From Arthrobacter woluwensis (GTDB lineage Bacteria; Actinomycetota; Actinomycetes; Actinomycetales; Micrococcaceae): DNA of 64,000 nt. The stretch lies in contig NZ_FNSN01000003.1 of NCBI RefSeq assembly GCF_900105345.1, forward strand, positions 248,001-312,000, given 5' to 3'. The position numbers and the translations under genes are program-made. This document shows positions 57,045-63,210 of the stretch, piece after piece; the stretch's first letter is position 1; each line of letters begins with the position of its first letter. The notes below the pieces were generated by a model that did no database searches, was not told the origin of the DNA, and saw only the letters and a program-made list of their open reading frames with translations.

Positions 57045-57725
57045 CTAAGCCCGCCCTTCGACCGCGTCCACGAGCTGCTGCTCGGCCCGGTCGAGATAAT
57101 CCCGGAGGTACTCGGCGGCCTCGGCACGCTGTCCCGCCGCCAGGAGCTCGACGATCCTCTCGTTGCCCTCCACATACGGCGCATGGAAGCGAGGGTCCCG
57201 GCCCATCGCCGCGAACACCAGCCGCATCTCCGCGAGCACCTGTTCCATGAGTGCGTCGAGCCGGATGCTGCCGGCGGCCGCGAGGACGGTCCGGTGGAAA
57301 TCCTGGTTCGCCCCGGCCATCCCGGCGATGTCACCCTCCGTGACCGCGGCTCGGCCCCGGCGGACGATCCCCGCGAGCTCCTCGACGTCGATCCGCGGGG
57401 CCCACAGCAGGGCGGCCGGTTCCACGAGCTTCCGGACCCGGTAGATCTCGCGGACATCCTCGGCCGTCGGGTGAGCCACGAAGACGCCGCGGTTCGGGAT
57501 CCGCTGCACCACGCGTTCGGCGTGCAGGGTGGCGAAGGCCTCGCGGAGCGTGTTCCGCGAGACGCCCAGGGCCTCCCGGAGCGCCTCTTCGGGAAGCTTG
57601 GTGCCAGGGGTCAGCTCGCCGTCGGCGATGCGCTGCCGCAGCGTGGCCGCCACCCACTGGGCGGTGTGCGCGTGGGCGGCACGCGCTTCGCGGCGCAACC
57701 CCGCCAGGACAGCATCAGAACTCAC
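57045..57725 (-). CDS. GntR-family regulator, FadR/FCD type
   Basis: 226 residues. The N-terminal winged helix (RIADGELTPGTKLPEEALREALGVSRNTLREAFATLHAERVVQRIPNRGVFV) is followed by an all-helical FCD ligand domain with metal-binding His/Asp positions (NQDFHRTVLAAAG). It lies directly downstream of the 5-oxoproline genes on the same strand and is the likely regulator that binds the two TTGTTsAACAA sites at 63052-63085. GTG 57725 is the probable start. Confidence 0.9.
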   Translation of the reverse strand: MSSDAVLAGLRREARAAHAHTAQWVAATLRQRIADGELTPGTKLPEEALREALGVSRNTLREAFATLHAERVVQRIPNRGVFVAHPTAEDVREIYRVRKLVEPAALLWAPRIDVEELAGIVRRGRAAVTEGDIAGMAGANQDFHRTVLAAAGSIRLDALMEQVLAEMRLVFAAMGRDPRFHAPYVEGNERIVELLAAGQRAEAAEYLRDYLDRAEQQLVDAVEGRA

Positions 57726-57778
57726 AGGCCCACTGTATGCCGAGGGGCGGAACAGGCCGGAATCGCCGTCACAGCGCT

Positions 57779-57843
57779 GAAACAGTGAGTTCCCGACGAA
57801 ACAGCGTGTTCTGCTCACTGTTTCGTCGGGAACTCACTGTTTC
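57779..57843. repeat. Intergenic palindrome, family C copy 1 (26-bp perfect arms)
   Basis: Arms 57779-57804 and 57818-57843 are perfect reverse complements (26 of 26) around a 13-nt loop. Each arm begins and ends with GAAACAG, 19 bp apart, so the element holds four copies of the motif. 38 bp downstream of pxpBC. Homologous to 63146-63210. Confidence 0.93.
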
Positions 57844-57881
57844 GGCGCACGGCCGGTCCACTGCCGGCCCGTGCCACGGAC

Positions 57882-59435
57882 CTACAGCGACGCCGGGGCC
57901 ACCGGTTCGAAGCGGACCCTCGCCCCGGGCGGGAGCTGGGCCAGCCGGTCCTGGTCCGCGTCGAGCACCACGCCGATCACGGGATACCCGCCGGTCACGG
58001 GGTGGTCCGCCATGAAGACCAGGGGCAGCCCGGACGCCGGCACCTGGATGGCGCCCCGCACCGTGCCCTCGCTCTGGAGCTCACCCTCGGTCCGGCGCAC
58101 CAGGGGCTCTCCGGAGAACCGGATCCCCACGCGGTTCGACTCGGCCGTCACGGTCCATTCCCCCGCGTGGAACGCCTCGAGGGACTCGTTGGTGAACCAG
58201 TCGTCGCGGGGACCGGGGACCACCCGGAGCACCGTGGCCTCCTCGGCCGATGGCAGCGCGGGAGCCGTCTCCGGTTCCCCCACGGCGCCGCGCAGCCGCG
58301 GATCGAGCAGGCCCAGACGGCTCCCCGCCGTGAGCGGGGCTGGACCCAGCCCGGACAAAACGTCCGTGGCGGCGCTGCCCAGCACCGTGCCGCCCCGCAC
58401 GCCGCCTCGTACCGCCACGTAGCTGCGCAGACCAGCGACAGGCGTTCCCAGCCGCAGCGTCTCACCGGCCAGGAGCGTGAGCGGGGCGTCGAGCGGGGCG
58501 TCCCACTGGGCGCCGTCGTCGCCGCCGATCAGAAGCGGGACGTCCGCCCCGGTGACGGCGAGGATCGTGTCCCGCAACGCGCGCAGCGTCAGGCCGCCTG
58601 GCAGGGCTTCGAGTCCGGGCGCGCCGGCGGGATTGCCGACCATGCGGTTGGCGCGTTTGAGGGCGCCGCGGTCCATGGCGCCGGAATCGCTGACCCCCGA
58701 CGCCGCGTGGCCGGGCCGCCCGAGGTCCTGCACCGTGGTCTGGAGGCCGGGGTTGCGGACCTCCAGGACGGGTTCGCCGGTTTCGGCGGCGGGCCGGGCG
58801 GGCAGGGCCTGCACGATGTCGCGGACGGGGACGAAGCGGACGGTGTCGCCGGCCTTGATGAGCGCGGGTTCGTCGCGGGCGGCGTCCCACAGGAGCGCGC
58901 CGGTGCGTCCGATGAGCTGCCAGCCGCCGGGCGAGTCATTCGGGTAGACGGCCGAGTACCCGCCGGCGAGCGCCACGGAACCGGCCGGCACCCGGGTCCG
59001 CGGGGACGTCCGGCGCGGGACCTCAGGCATGCCGGGCGCGCTAAGGTAGGCGAACCCCGGGGCGAATCCGCCGAACGCGGCGGTCCAGACGGCGTCCGCG
59101 TGCCCGGCCACAACGGCCTCGACGCTGCGGCCGGTGAGGCGGGCGACCTCGGCGAGGTCCTCGCCGTCGTACACGGTCTCGATCCTCACCTCGCGCCCGG
59201 CGGAGCGCACCCCGGCGGCCAGGTCAGCCGACCGCAGCCGCTCCACCACCCCGGCCAGAGACTGCGGGAGACCCACGGTCACGAGCACGGTGCGAGCCGC
59301 GGCCACGACATCCACGACGCCGGCCGGGGGCTCGGCGAGCAGGCCCGCCTGGAGCGCCAGCACGGCGTCCAGGCCGTCGAGTTCGGCGAGCACCGCGCGG
59401 TCCCCCACGCGGCGCACGCCCAGCAGTCGGCCCAT
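57882..59435 (-). CDS. pxpBC: 5-oxoprolinase subunits PxpB-PxpC fusion
   Basis: ATP-dependent opening of 5-oxoproline to glutamate, together with PxpA. 517 residues. The N-terminal half is PxpB (KipI-like), with FGGFAPGFAYL and the DSPGGWQLIGRT region. The C-terminal half, from about 220, is PxpC (KipA/AHS2), beginning GLQTTVQDLGRPGHAASG and ending with MADHPVTGGYPVIGVV. A single-chain fusion of what are often two genes. Its ATG is one base after the pxpA stop. Confidence 0.93.
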   Translation of the reverse strand: MGRLLGVRRVGDRAVLAELDGLDAVLALQAGLLAEPPAGVVDVVAAARTVLVTVGLPQSLAGVVERLRSADLAAGVRSAGREVRIETVYDGEDLAEVARLTGRSVEAVVAGHADAVWTAAFGGFAPGFAYLSAPGMPEVPRRTSPRTRVPAGSVALAGGYSAVYPNDSPGGWQLIGRTGALLWDAARDEPALIKAGDTVRFVPVRDIVQALPARPAAETGEPVLEVRNPGLQTTVQDLGRPGHAASGVSDSGAMDRGALKRANRMVGNPAGAPGLEALPGGLTLRALRDTILAVTGADVPLLIGGDDGAQWDAPLDAPLTLLAGETLRLGTPVAGLRSYVAVRGGVRGGTVLGSAATDVLSGLGPAPLTAGSRLGLLDPRLRGAVGEPETAPALPSAEEATVLRVVPGPRDDWFTNESLEAFHAGEWTVTAESNRVGIRFSGEPLVRRTEGELQSEGTVRGAIQVPASGLPLVFMADHPVTGGYPVIGVVLDADQDRLAQLPPGARVRFEPVAPASL

Positions 59436-59436
59436 C

Positions 59437-60192
59437 TCAGGCGAAGCTCTGGACCACGACGCCGCGCGCCGTGAGTTCCCGGTGGATGCGCTCGGCCATG
59501 GCGACCGCCCCGGGGGTGTCGCCGTGCACGCAGATGCTGCCGGCGGTCACGGGCAGCACGGTGCCGTCGGCGGCCCGGACCGTGCCGTCCACCAGGCGGA
59601 ACACGTGGTCCAGGATCCGGTCGATGTCGTGCAGCACGGCGTCCGGGTCGCTGCGGGGGACGAGAGTGCCGTCGGGCCGGTAGGCGCGGTCGGCGAACGC
59701 TTCGGCCACGGTGCGGAGCCCGGCCTCGGCGGCGATCCGTTCGACAGCGGAACCGGGCAGCACCAGGAGGGGAAGCGCCGGATCGACGGCGAGGACCGCG
59801 TCGACCACGGCCCGCGCCTGGGCCTCGTGGCGCACGATCGTGTTGTAGAGGGCGCCGTGCGGTTTCACGTACCGGACGGCGGCGCCCTCGGCACGTGCGA
59901 GGGCCTGGAGCGCGCCGATCTGGTAGATCACGTCGTCGCGGAGCTCCCCCGCGTCCATGTCGATGAAGCGGCGCCCGAAGCCCGCCAGGTCGCGGTAGCC
60001 GGGGTGGGCCCCGACGGTCGTCCCGGTGCGCACGGCCGCGCGCACGGTGGCGCGGATGCCCACCGGGTCCCCGGCGTGGAAACCGCACGCGACGTTGGCG
60101 CTCGAGACGTTGGCCAGGATGGCGGCGTCGTCCCCGAAGGTCCAGTTCCCAAAGGACTCCCCGACGTCGCTGTTGAGGTCGATCACGCTCAC
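59437..60192 (-). CDS. pxpA: 5-oxoprolinase subunit PxpA (LamB/YcsF)
   Basis: 251 residues. Family signatures: [51 protein letters not shown] and [10 protein letters not shown]. It acts with PxpBC. GTG 60192 overlaps the DUF2891 stop as GTGA and is chosen for that reason; GTG 60186 is also in frame. Confidence 0.95.
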
Positions 60193-61274
60193 GCGGTCAC
60201 GCTCCGCAGGCGTCCGATGGACTCCCGGGCGTCCCACGCGAAGCTCGCGAGCCAGTGCGTGGACATGAAGTCGCCGCTCTGCAGGCCGTGCATCCCGGCC
60301 TCGAACAGCGGCTCGACGGCGGCGTCCAGCACCGCGCGCAGGTCCTGCGGCGTGCCGGAGCGGGCGCCGGGCCGGGCTTCAGCCGGGGCGTCCAGCGCCG
60401 CGACCACCCGTGCGAGCTGCCCCGCCCTCGTGAGGTTCAGGCCGTGCAGGTGGACCATGTAGCCGTCGCTCTCATCGGCCACCCCGACGGTGGCGAGCAT
60501 GCGGGACTCCGCGGTCAGGCCGGGCAGGAACCCCTCCAGCCAGACGGCGAACTCGTCGGTGGGGAGCACGCGCTGCAGGAGATCGGCCTCGCTGAGCCCG
60601 GCGGAGAGGAAGTCCTGCCCGCTCAGCTCCCACTCGGTGGCCCAGGCACGGTCCTCACCGAACCAGCGGAGGGCGGCCCGTTCGCAGGCCTCCGCGGCTG
60701 CGTCGCGGCCGAGGTCACGGAACGCGGTCAGGAGGTAGGACAGTCCGAAAGCCGAGTTGGTGTGCAGGCCGTGCCGCACCGGGTGCTCGACGGTCGCGGT
60801 CCACGCCTGGACCAGCTCCGCCACCACGTCCACGCAGCCGTCCAGGTCGCGGCCCCAGGCGGCGATCTCCGGATCCTGGGACGCGTGGCAGGCCGCGGCC
60901 AGGCGCACGAGCCAGGCCCAGCCGTACGGGCGTTCCCAGCTGGGGTTGGCTCGGAGGTAGTCCGCCTCGACGGCGAGCTTCGCGGCGGTGAGGTTCGCGC
61001 CCAGGGCGGCGCGGAGGGCGTCGGCCGTGCCGGCGTCAAGGTCCGCCTCGCCCCGCAGAGCGGCGTCGAGCACGCTGACGCCGAGCCAGTGCATGTGCAC
61101 GCAGGAGTGCCAGTCGAAGGAGGTGTGGAACGCCGGGTGGAGCTCGGCGGGCGTGTGCAGATCGGTCTCGGAGCGCTCCACGTGGTGCGAGGCGTAGGGG
61201 TACGGGCGGCCCAGATTGTCCAGGACGACGTCGGCGCAGTGCTGGGCGGCGCCCGGGAAGAAGGTGTCGGTCAT
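60189..61274 (-). CDS. DUF2891 protein
   Basis: 361 residues, soluble and helical, rich in Trp and His near the N-terminus ([17 protein letters not shown]), with repeated helices like an alpha/alpha barrel. The DUF2891 family occurs beside DUF969/DUF979 and pyroglutamate genes. Its reaction is unknown; a role in releasing or processing pyroglutamyl compounds is possible. Located between the transporter pair and pxpA in one operon. Confidence 0.85.
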
Positions 61275-61286
61275 GAGGGTGCCTTT

Positions 61287-62255
61287 CTAGAACGCCAGGA
61301 AGTACATGAGGCCGATGTTGACCACCAGCAACGGCAGAGCGGTGCCGATCTGCGCCGTGATCACACCGTAGCGGTTCTTCATCTCGAGGAGCGCGGCCGG
61401 GACCAGGTTGAAGTTCGCCGCCATGGGGGTGCACAGCGTGCCGCAGAAGCCCGCGAGCATGCCGATGGCGAAGACGATCGCCGGATTGCCGTGGAACTGC
61501 TGGATCAGGACGGGCCAGCCGATCGCCGCGGTCATGATCGGGAAGGCCGCGAAGCCGTTGCCCATCAGCACCGTGAACAGGAACATGCCCACGCAATACA
61601 CCGTCACAGCGGCCAGCAGCGACCCCTTCGGGAGGATGGATGCCGTGAGGGTTCCGACCGCCGTCCCGACGCCCGCCTTGGTGAACAGGATGCCGAGGGT
61701 CGAGAGCATCTGCGGCAGGAGCGCCGCCCAGCCGATGGACTCCAGGATCCGGCGGCTCTCCAGCAGCGGCGCGAGCTTGTTGCGGGGCTTCAGGATCACG
61801 ACGGCGGCGGCCGCGGCCACGATCGCGCCGATGGTCAGTGCCACGAGGGTGGTGTTCTTGGGATCCAGGATCGGCGTGCCCCCGATGACGAGGACCGGCG
61901 CCGCGAGCACGAGGGCAACGGTCACCACCGGAAGCAGGAGGGCCGGGATGAACAGCTTGTTCCCGAAACGGGCGGCATAGGCGACGCGCTCGGCGGGGGT
62001 GGACGACTTCGCCTTGCCGTCCGAGAGCTGGCCGCTGGAGGCGAGTCCCACGAGCACCAGGACCGCCACGCCCAGGATCCACGCGGGAGCCTTCCCGGCC
62101 TGGACCCACGTGCCGTAGAAGAAGCAGAGCCCGAGGATGCCCCAGAAGAGCGAGCTGCCGATGCGGTGCCGGTGGCCGGTGTCCCGCGCGATGAGGGAGG
62201 CCCAGGCGATGAACAGGGCTCCGATGAACCAGTAGACGGCTTCGACGTTGATCAT
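61287..62255 (-). CDS. DUF979 membrane protein, probable 5-oxoproline transporter subunit
   Basis: 322 residues with about nine membrane segments. GIGF-like MLAGFCGTLCTPMAANFNLVPAALLEMKNRYG is conserved in the family. It overlaps DUF969 as ATGA, and the pair is always found together. Genomic association with pxp genes, as here, points to uptake of 5-oxoproline or pyroglutamyl peptides. The transport role is inference. Confidence 0.88.
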   Translation of the reverse strand: MINVEAVYWFIGALFIAWASLIARDTGHRHRIGSSLFWGILGLCFFYGTWVQAGKAPAWILGVAVLVLVGLASSGQLSDGKAKSSTPAERVAYAARFGNKLFIPALLLPVVTVALVLAAPVLVIGGTPILDPKNTTLVALTIGAIVAAAAAVVILKPRNKLAPLLESRRILESIGWAALLPQMLSTLGILFTKAGVGTAVGTLTASILPKGSLLAAVTVYCVGMFLFTVLMGNGFAAFPIMTAAIGWPVLIQQFHGNPAIVFAIGMLAGFCGTLCTPMAANFNLVPAALLEMKNRYGVITAQIGTALPLLVVNIGLMYFLAF

Positions 62256-62980
62256 GCGGCGCTCCCGGCCTCGACGGTGACGGTCTTCCCGGTGAGACGG
62301 GCGTATTCGCGGTCCAGCTGACGGTCCAGGCGGAGGAGCCGGAAGCCGTGGATGAGGAAGGCGGCGATCGCGGTCGGGATGGCCCAGAGCGCGAGTTCGA
62401 GCGGTTCGAGCTGCAGGTGGTACGTGGTGTCCACGAAGGTGGTGATCAGCAGGATCGACCCGACGGCCACGAAGACGTCCTCGCCGAAGAAGACGCCGAC
62501 GTTGTCCGCCGCGGCGGAGTGGCCCTTGATGCGTTCCTTGAGCTTCTCCGGAACCGTGCCGTAGCGGCGCATCGCGGCGCCCTCGGCCATCGGGTAGACG
62601 AGCGGCCGGACGGCCTGCGCGTGCCCGCCGATGCTCGTCAGCCCGACGGCGGCGGTCACCTGGCGGATGGCCAGGTACGCCAGGAGGACGCGGCCGGCCG
62701 TGAGGCGGGCGAGCTTGGAGATCAGATTCTTGGCCTGTTCCTGGAGCCCGAAGTATTCGATGATGCCGATGACCGGCAGCACGGCCGCGAAGACCGTGAC
62801 GGAACGGCTGCTGGCGAAGCCGGAACCGAAGGCCTCCAGGATCTGCAAGGGGTTCATACCGCCCAGGAGCGCGGTGACGATCCCGGCGACGGTGACGACG
62901 ATGAGGGGGTTGAGGCGAACGGCGAATCCGATGATCACCAGCAGCACCCCGATGAGTACGAGCATGCGAGTCCATTCCAC
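62252..62980 (-). CDS. DUF969 membrane protein, probable 5-oxoproline transporter subunit
   Basis: 242 residues with about five membrane segments. VGLTSIGGHAQAVRPLVYPMAEGAA is the family signature. First gene of the six-gene operon DUF969-DUF979-DUF2891-pxpA-pxpBC-gntR. GTG 62980 is reported; ATG 62965, five codons in, is possible. The promoter with two operators lies at 63041-63085. Confidence 0.88.
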   Translation of the reverse strand: MEWTRMLVLIGVLLVIIGFAVRLNPLIVVTVAGIVTALLGGMNPLQILEAFGSGFASSRSVTVFAAVLPVIGIIEYFGLQEQAKNLISKLARLTAGRVLLAYLAIRQVTAAVGLTSIGGHAQAVRPLVYPMAEGAAMRRYGTVPEKLKERIKGHSAAADNVGVFFGEDVFVAVGSILLITTFVDTTYHLQLEPLELALWAIPTAIAAFLIHGFRLLRLDRQLDREYARLTGKTVTVEAGSAA

Positions 62981-63040
62981 GGGGACCGACCGGTCCGGGA
63001 GAGCTGTCCGTGGCGCCCGTCACGGGACCACGTGACTCAC

Positions 63041-63085
63041 ATCATAGAACTTTGTTCAACAATCCGGCAAGGGTTTGTTGAACAA
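63041..63085 (-). promoter_or_regulatory. 5-oxoproline operon promoter with two GntR-type operators
   Basis: TTGTTCAACAA (63052-63062) and TTGTTGAACAA (63075-63085) are palindromes of the FadR/FCD GntR type (TnGTnnnACnA), with centres 23 bp apart. On the minus strand, TTGCCG (63070-63065) and TATGAT (63046-63041), 18 bp apart, form a promoter. One operator lies between -35 and -10, the other just upstream of -35. This predicts repression by the GntR protein at 57045. Confidence 0.75.
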
Positions 63086-63145
63086 TCCGGAGGCGTGGCG
63101 GGCGGCGGGGCGGGCGTCGGTGGGCGTGGCGGCCCCGGAAACGCC

Positions 63146-63210
63146 GAAACCGCGAGTTTCCGTCGAAACCGCGCGTTAAACACACTGTTTCGACGGAAAC
63201 TCACGGTTTC
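63146..63210. repeat. Intergenic palindrome, family C copy 2
   Basis: Left arm 63146-63169 (GAAACCG...GAAAC) pairs with 63187-63210 with a single mismatch in 24. GAAACCG recurs at 63165-63171, 19 bp from the first copy, exactly as in the 57779 copy. Total length 65 bp in both. It lies 39 bp downstream of the mannosidase stop and 60 bp from the operon operators. Confidence 0.9.

Follow-up and report, generated by a model that had tools for sequence, protein, structure and literature searches.

5-Oxoproline (pyroglutamate) is a common waste form of glutamate, and Niehaus et al. in 2017 reportedly described a 5-oxoprolinase, PxpABC, made up of the families PxpA, PxpB and PxpC. The same three families, with PxpB and PxpC fused, are encoded in a 64,000-nucleotide stretch of the Arthrobacter woluwensis genome (contig NZ_FNSN01000003.1, positions 248,001 to 312,000; hereafter the window, in whose numbering all coordinates are given), where they share an operon with DUF969, DUF979 and DUF2891 and are followed by a gene for a GntR/FCD regulator. 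The closest described regulatory system is that of Corynebacterium glutamicum, in which the GntR-type PxpR represses pxpTABC through 5'-agattgttcaacaatct-3', a motif that had been proposed by RegPrecise; reporter expression rose 6.5-fold when the motif was altered or deleted (PMC13274462). By isothermal titration calorimetry, PxpR bound 5-oxoproline with a dissociation constant (KD) of 726 nM, and binding of glutamate, aspartate, glutamine and proline was not detected, according to the accessible part of the same report, whose authors state there that they were aware of no prior study on such regulation by 5-oxoproline (PMC13274462).

Two further systems bear on the importer. In a preliminary experiment, a Campylobacter jejuni mutant of cj0552-cj0554, genes with the same order DUF969-DUF979-DUF2891, failed to grow when 5-oxoproline was the nitrogen source (PMC12795558); as far as the accessible part of that source goes, just these three genes and a glutamine response are named, with the contribution of each gene not separated. 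DUF979 has been assigned to the ion transporter (IT) superfamily, with DUF969 as its predicted partner, on the basis of structures predicted for a Clostridioides difficile pair (PMC11467057); the two genes are likewise adjacent in the window, within a 5-oxoproline operon. We consider it very probable that the window holds an operon that is complete in itself for the use of 5-oxoproline and is controlled by a PxpR-type repressor. With the role of DUF2891 set aside, we hold the overall explanation with high confidence: the gene content, the operator sequences, the promoter geometry and the recurrence of boxes and genes are observed, and repression, ligand and importer phenotype were demonstrated by others in relatives, from which we infer every step for the organism of the window. 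The pathway is known; what is new here is a proposed DUF969/DUF979 importer and DUF2891 under a paired PxpR-type operator. This extends the C. glutamicum PxpR regulon, the sole experimentally studied 5-oxoproline regulon found, to a DUF969/DUF979-type system, and the shared operator is an independent line tying two DUF families to a known inducer.

Gene layout and paired predicted operators

All six genes of the operon region lie on the minus strand, and each passed its Pfam cut-off in a profile search of the window proteins. In order of transcription they encode DUF969 (62252-62980; PF06149, 287.4 bits) and DUF979 (61287-62255; PF06166, 382.7 bits), the proposed halves of a 5-oxoproline importer; DUF2891 (60189-61274; PF11199, 294 bits), an alpha/alpha toroid proposed to be an accessory enzyme feeding 5-oxoproline; the 5-oxoprolinase subunit PxpA (59437-60192; PF03746, 331.7 bits; NF003814, 361.8 against a cut-off of 226); the PxpBC fusion (57882-59435; PF02682, 168.8 bits, and PF02626, 278 bits; TIGR00724, 253.4 against a cut-off of 230.2); and a regulator that appears PxpR-like from its sequence (57045-57725; PF00392, 73.4 bits, and PF07729, 67 bits). 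PxpA belongs to the LamB/YcsF family, the fusion contains the carboxyltransferase-type domains of both PxpB and PxpC, and the regulator joins a GntR helix-turn-helix to a C-terminal ligand domain, here FCD, as expected of a PxpR regulator. The initial annotation had described a tightly overlapping operon followed by the GntR/FCD gene, and the layout bears this out. DUF969 and DUF979 overlap by 4 nt, DUF979 and DUF2891 are separated by 12 nt, DUF2891 and PxpA overlap by 4 nt, and the gap between PxpA and PxpBC is 1 nt. These values take the in-frame GTG at 60192 as the PxpA start (the listed open reading frame begins at 60237). With the regulator start likewise set to the in-frame GTG at 57725 (listed from 57818), 156 nt lie between PxpBC and the regulator gene, which follows by position; this gap contains a long hairpin, and a scan of it found neither a promoter nor a terminator. 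The genome (3.86 Mb, 9 contigs) has one PxpA.

A single sigma-70-like promoter was detected by a scan of the minus strand, against a mean of 0.0 (sd 0.2) in shuffled sequence; it is predicted at 63041..63070 with the -35 element TTGCCG at 63070-63065, an 18-nt spacer and the -10 element TATGAT at 63046-63041. Two predicted PxpR-type operators flank this -35 element, because operator 1 (TTGTTCAACAA on the plus strand, 63052..63062) sits inside the -35/-10 spacer and operator 2 (TTGTTGAACAA on the plus strand, 63075..63085) lies 4 nt 5' of the -35. The two TTGTTsAACAA sites that had been proposed to straddle the promoter are therefore exactly where they were claimed to be, and they are the only exact TTGTTSAACAA sites in the whole genome. 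Box 1 is the same as the C. glutamicum core, and box 2 departs from it at the central base only; read on the opposite strand, the core is box 2.

The window operon shares with C. glutamicum pxpR-pxpTABC a GntR-type repressor, the TTGTTCAACAA core operator at the promoter of a 5-oxoproline operon, and the PxpABC 5-oxoprolinase. The arrangement differs in several respects. C. glutamicum has one operator, 3' of the predicted -10, whereas the window has two, flanking the -35; pxpR is divergent there, whereas the window regulator gene is distal to the operon; and the importer is the Nramp-related PxpT instead of DUF969/DUF979. Neither DUF2891 nor DUF969 was found in the C. glutamicum control genome, whereas the window operon carries both. 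The 5-oxoproline ligand was measured in C. glutamicum and is predicted in the window, where 5-oxoproline or a derivative had already been named as the expected GntR ligand; the identity of the box core to that of a 5-oxoproline-binding regulator supports this prediction (PMC13274462). By analogy with the C. glutamicum system, the prediction that the GntR protein, the boxes and 5-oxoproline together control the window operon is strongly supported. The earlier description of a module for 5-oxoproline that includes a dedicated GntR regulator is also supported, given that the boxes and genes recur in several families of Actinomycetota.

On this model, the GntR/FCD protein would occupy the two 11-bp palindromes around the -35 and in the spacer when no ligand is present, blocking RNA polymerase. 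Accumulating 5-oxoproline would bind the FCD domain and release the repressor, and the operon would be transcribed. DUF969 and DUF979 would then jointly import 5-oxoproline, and PxpA with the PxpBC fusion would open the lactam at the expense of ATP to give L-glutamate as a source of carbon and nitrogen, with DUF2891 perhaps deriving L-5-oxoproline from a related compound. The window promoter also suggests a 5-oxoproline sensor promoter.

Operator recurrence and the candidate importers behind it

Recurrence was assessed at 113 loci. Of these, 33 were stretches covering the window locus itself, 26 further Micrococcaceae loci and 6 loci of other families in the phylum; the remaining 80 were named loci, the best-scoring of 587 in a genome scan. 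Three genomes occur twice (L068/L114, L077/L116 and L083/L129), and counts are per locus. A box was present within 320 bp 5' of DUF969 at 29 of 48 testable loci (nine with two boxes; one further locus not testable) and within the same distance of PxpA at 19 of 46 (two not testable), as compared with one of 113 for DUF2891. A separate pxpA-pxpBC unit often carries its own box. Across 120 Micrococcaceae genomes, the exact pattern occurred in 96 genomes and at 255 places, against 41 genomes and 62 places for a reversed control; among 75 places listed (34 genomes), 26, spread over 20 genomes, lay no more than 250 bp 5' of a PxpA match.

Twelve promoters chosen for having two exact boxes were aligned, eight preceding DUF969 and four preceding Nramp-type genes. 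L068 and L114 among them are the same genome, and of the nine two-box DUF969 loci, one of which is the window, L081 was left out. All 12 promoters have boxes spaced 23-24 bp apart with TTG between them, and in 10 cases this reads TTGC. A -10 of the window type, TATG[AC]T, recurs in all eight DUF969 promoters and in none of the four Nramp-type ones.

The Nramp-family genes behind such paired boxes come from four Micrococcaceae genomes (L208, L211, L215 and L216), and a fifth locus, L196, has a single box before an Nramp-family gene. In two genomes, G556 (L231) and G546 (L234), a relative of the window regulator (49% and 47% identity, respectively) is divergent from a relative of the Nramp gene (68%) with a box between them, which is the C. 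glutamicum layout. Two Nramp matches were found in the window genome, neither of them near a box; they scored 357.6 and 240 bits, and the compared Nramp-type genes 78-90 bits. DUF969/DUF979 appears to hold the place of PxpT in the genus of the window, since, in the four family genomes, promoters with two boxes spaced as in the window stand before a PxpT-like importer. The assignment of DUF969/DUF979 as a 5-oxoproline importer is supported by analogy with the C. jejuni mutant, which lost DUF2891 as well.

Other transporters also stand beside boxes of this type. A gene for a major facilitator superfamily (MFS) transporter adjoins PxpR-type boxes and a GntR relative at L192:1-1511 (by Pfam) and L232:1531-2868 (by similarity), and its product is a candidate further 5-oxoproline importer. 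In Pseudoglutamicibacter (L129:6870-8906, also L082-L085), a box precedes genes for an energy-coupling factor (ECF) ATPase, a T component and a BioY-family S component, with DUF2891 after them. Biotin supply may have joined the 5-oxoproline regulon there; alternatively, this BioY relative may have another substrate.

Several relatives carry disrupted versions of the operon. In a genome of the same genus (G218, L081:10071-10824), pxpA is read in two frames and gives two PxpA matches, so it is broken there or mis-sequenced; the remaining operon proteins are 93-100% identical to those of the window. Both boxes are kept at L072:8515-8915 (G184), where nothing of DUF969 and no more than the last third of DUF979 is left before DUF2891, and the GntR regulator gene is split across two frames at L080:5938-6605 (G250).

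Distribution, fold and candidate roles of DUF2891

Among the 120 Micrococcaceae genomes, DUF2891 was found in 27, DUF969 in 18 and PxpA in 109. DUF2891 and DUF969 occurred together in 15 genomes, DUF2891 alone in 12, DUF969 alone in three and neither in 90 (Fisher p 2e-9, uncorrected for kinship; two of the three DUF969-only genomes are 82% complete). Partner genes were sought around the best 80 of 587 DUF2891 loci by tblastn with the window proteins (E <=1e-4, up to 9 kb of flank on each side). DUF969, DUF979, PxpA and PxpBC were all nearby at 23 loci, DUF969/DUF979 only at 10, PxpA/PxpBC only at nine and DUF969/DUF979/PxpBC at one, which leaves 37 loci with no partner. Sixteen of these 37 have a flank shorter than 8.9 kb, and many of the genomes are metagenome-assembled genomes (MAGs) of untold completeness; when only loci with full flanks are counted, 21 of 57 are without a partner. 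Whole-genome searches covered 32 of the 37 lone-locus genomes (all except those of L128, L152, L176, L191 and L125); in these 32, many of them MAGs, PxpA was not found in 17 and was present in 15, and DUF969 was over its cut-off in 2, with 30 lacking such a match. The constant company in which the initial annotation placed DUF2891 is therefore rejected.

Genes next to DUF2891 vary in kind. At four loci with PxpBC also nearby (L175, L180, L185 and L188; Pfam on L175 and L180), DUF2891 and PxpA have an Nramp-like gene between them, and in a Streptomyces version (L138) a pyroglutamyl peptidase gene lies between DUF979 and DUF2891. Pfam searches on 10 genes neighbouring lone DUF2891 copies returned unrelated families (BipA, RmuC, M90 peptidase, Mg chelatase, GatB, cytosine/purine permease and PAP2), and none for three of the 10. 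A clustering of neighbour genes, whose groups include antisense shadow frames, served solely to pick genes for Pfam searches.

The structure model of the window protein (predicted local distance difference test, pLDDT, 89) matched best the C. jejuni protein CJ0554 (8ieu/8iev; Z 42, 29% identity), whose crystal structures are of the same family and fold. The titles of these entries give no function, a literature search on CJ0554/8ieu found no structural paper, and the papers found on DUF2891, in their accessible parts, assign none. The next matches included the 2-epimerases 5zig (cellobiose 2-epimerase, Z 16.8), 3wkf (15.8) and 1fp3 (14.9) and the unsaturated glucuronyl hydrolase 2zzr (Z 16.3), with complement fragments close behind. 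These values are to be read against those of other toroids, at Z 13-16, and of helical models, which often reach Z 14. A profile search of the PDB with DUF2891 returned CJ0554 as its sole match. Invariant polar residues across 26 DUF2891 sequences include D54, H56, E103, E114, R115, R167, H171, N173, D208, E216, D221, D267, D270, H275 and H340.

Export signals differ between lineages. Called by a rule of our own making, which missed L172 and L182 (lipoprotein-like by eye), a lipoprotein-type signal was present on DUF2891 at 11 of 113 loci and on none of 60 control starts (31 PxpA, 8 PxpBC and 21 GntR). The 11 signal-bearing proteins are flavobacterial, saprospiral and from Hyphomonadaceae-type alphaproteobacteria, with one record each from Algicola, Pyrinomonadaceae and Opitutaceae. 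Seven loci outside Actinomycetota have PxpA-PxpBC nearby (L172, L175, L180, L182, L184, L185 and L188), and five of them pass the rule, the other two being L172 and L182. No such signal was seen on the window protein. The lipoprotein-type signal in some Gram-negative lineages implies that DUF2891 there should not depend on cytoplasmic cofactors.

It is a fair guess that DUF2891 performs a step in making or handling pyroglutamate, as had been suggested. More specifically, we tentatively favour an accessory, cofactor-free alpha/alpha-toroid enzyme supplying L-5-oxoproline from some related compound, a possibility to which we give limited credence; D-5-oxoproline or a pyroglutamyl conjugate are our best single guesses at its substrate. 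A hydrolase freeing 5-oxoproline from a conjugate (a pyroglutamyl peptide, amide, ester or sugar adduct) would agree with the toroid shared with unsaturated glucuronyl hydrolases, with the pyroglutamyl peptidase gene of the Streptomyces version and with the probable export of DUF2891 in some lineages, which would bring it into contact with conjugates. With CJ0554 as the only match among solved structures and no known substrate, we regard this particular activity as rather unlikely.

Sugar 2-epimerases of the kind matched by the model are not known to need a cofactor. A racemase or epimerase converting D-5-oxoproline to L-5-oxoproline would fit these top folds after CJ0554, the invariant histidines H56, H171, H275 and H340 among the polar residues, the export signals that argue against cytoplasmic cofactors in some lineages, and an accessory-like distribution. 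However, hydrolases and complement fragments fall in the same Z range, helical models often come close to it, and DUF2891 is present in genomes where PxpA was not found. Moreover, hhalign of the 26 DUF2891 sequences against a small profile of six N-acetylglucosamine (GlcNAc) 2-epimerase sequences gave a probability of 0.1 of 100, and no sequence relationship to that family was found. We therefore judge a racemase to be unlikely. A role outside catalysis, as a substrate-holding or coupling protein of the transporter, draws on the co-occurrence of DUF2891 with DUF969 in Micrococcaceae and on its position beside transporters of several types; it seems quite unlikely to us, as the protein is without a signal in the window but probably exported in other lineages, and many genomes have DUF2891 without DUF969.

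A broader proposal joins the two threads of this study. DUF2891 would be a cofactor-free enzyme supplying L-5-oxoproline, working as a lipoprotein outside the cytoplasm in Bacteroidota and Hyphomonadaceae-type alphaproteobacteria and inside it in actinobacteria, and one PxpR regulon would have exchanged its importer, under one operator, among at least four unrelated kinds (Nramp-type, DUF969/979, MFS and ECF/BioY-type). We put this forward tentatively, with more doubt than confidence. DUF2891 is now tractable: its fold and conserved residues are in hand, as are export signals and candidate substrates.

Competing readings of the operon and the hairpin repeats

Several observations weigh against a PxpR-controlled 5-oxoproline operon. 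The 17-bp C. glutamicum motif (S at the centre, at most one mismatch) is absent from the window genome, where only the 11-bp core matches; this motif is present in 7 of 394 genomes of the class. The window regulator gene is not divergent, is set apart by a hairpin and lacks a box of its own. Among the NCBIfam equivalogs, PxpB (TIGR00370, 124 against 145.55) and PxpC (NF045499, 191.5 against 500) are below cut-off, so their assignment is at the family level and not that of the equivalog. No exact box precedes DUF969 at 19 of 48 loci, including 10 of 12 in Streptomyces and all four in Kribbella. Nine of 29 fetched Micrococcaceae box loci have no PxpA, DUF969, GntR or tested transporter gene beside the box; the exact box is thus not confined to the 5-oxoproline pathway. 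To these are added the lone-DUF2891 genomes described above in which PxpA or DUF969 was not found. No experiment on the organism of the window came to light, with no search made under its name. The box-only loci are L197, L198, L199, L201, L202, L207, L214, L219 and L220, with the box at position 1501 (1268 in L201), and they represent either chance occurrences or further PxpR targets.

The first of two other readings is that PxpA and PxpBC act on a different lactam or cyclic amide, such as a compound resembling hydantoin or caprolactam, and that 5-oxoproline is not the natural inducer of the operon. The equivalog scores of PxpBC would suit it, as would the two or three PxpA matches found in 25 of the 120 genomes (one of them a split gene). 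In some relatives, the gene after PxpBC encodes a fusion of biotin carboxylase and biotin carrier (L117:2669-4555, by Pfam; similar open reading frames from ten other loci cluster with it), and the enzyme family may therefore be chemically diverse. This gene is missing from the window operon. The window genome has one PxpA only, the Streptomyces version includes a pyroglutamyl peptidase, and the box core is that of a regulator for which binding was measured with 5-oxoproline but not seen with any of four amino acids, which makes another lactam highly unlikely. That the boxes belong to a different regulator, with the linked GntR gene unrelated to them, could be argued from the distal, boxless position of this gene behind the hairpin, yet it is scarcely credible, as boxes and related GntR genes are neighbours at many loci, and at L231, L232 and L234 the GntR gene and the regulated gene are divergent, with a box in the region separating them.

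The hairpin between the PxpBC and regulator genes (57774-57848; -58.8 kcal/mol) has 31-nt arms, and together with a second copy at 63142-63210, which is 80% alike, it brackets the operon. RNA folding of both copies was strong (z -12.5 and -9.0, respectively). The first copy matched 15 places in the genome including itself (E <=0.001), with the second window copy not among them, and it looks like a member of a dispersed family resembling repetitive extragenic palindromic (REP) elements. Possibly, the copy at 57774-57848 also acts as an attenuator of the distal regulator gene.

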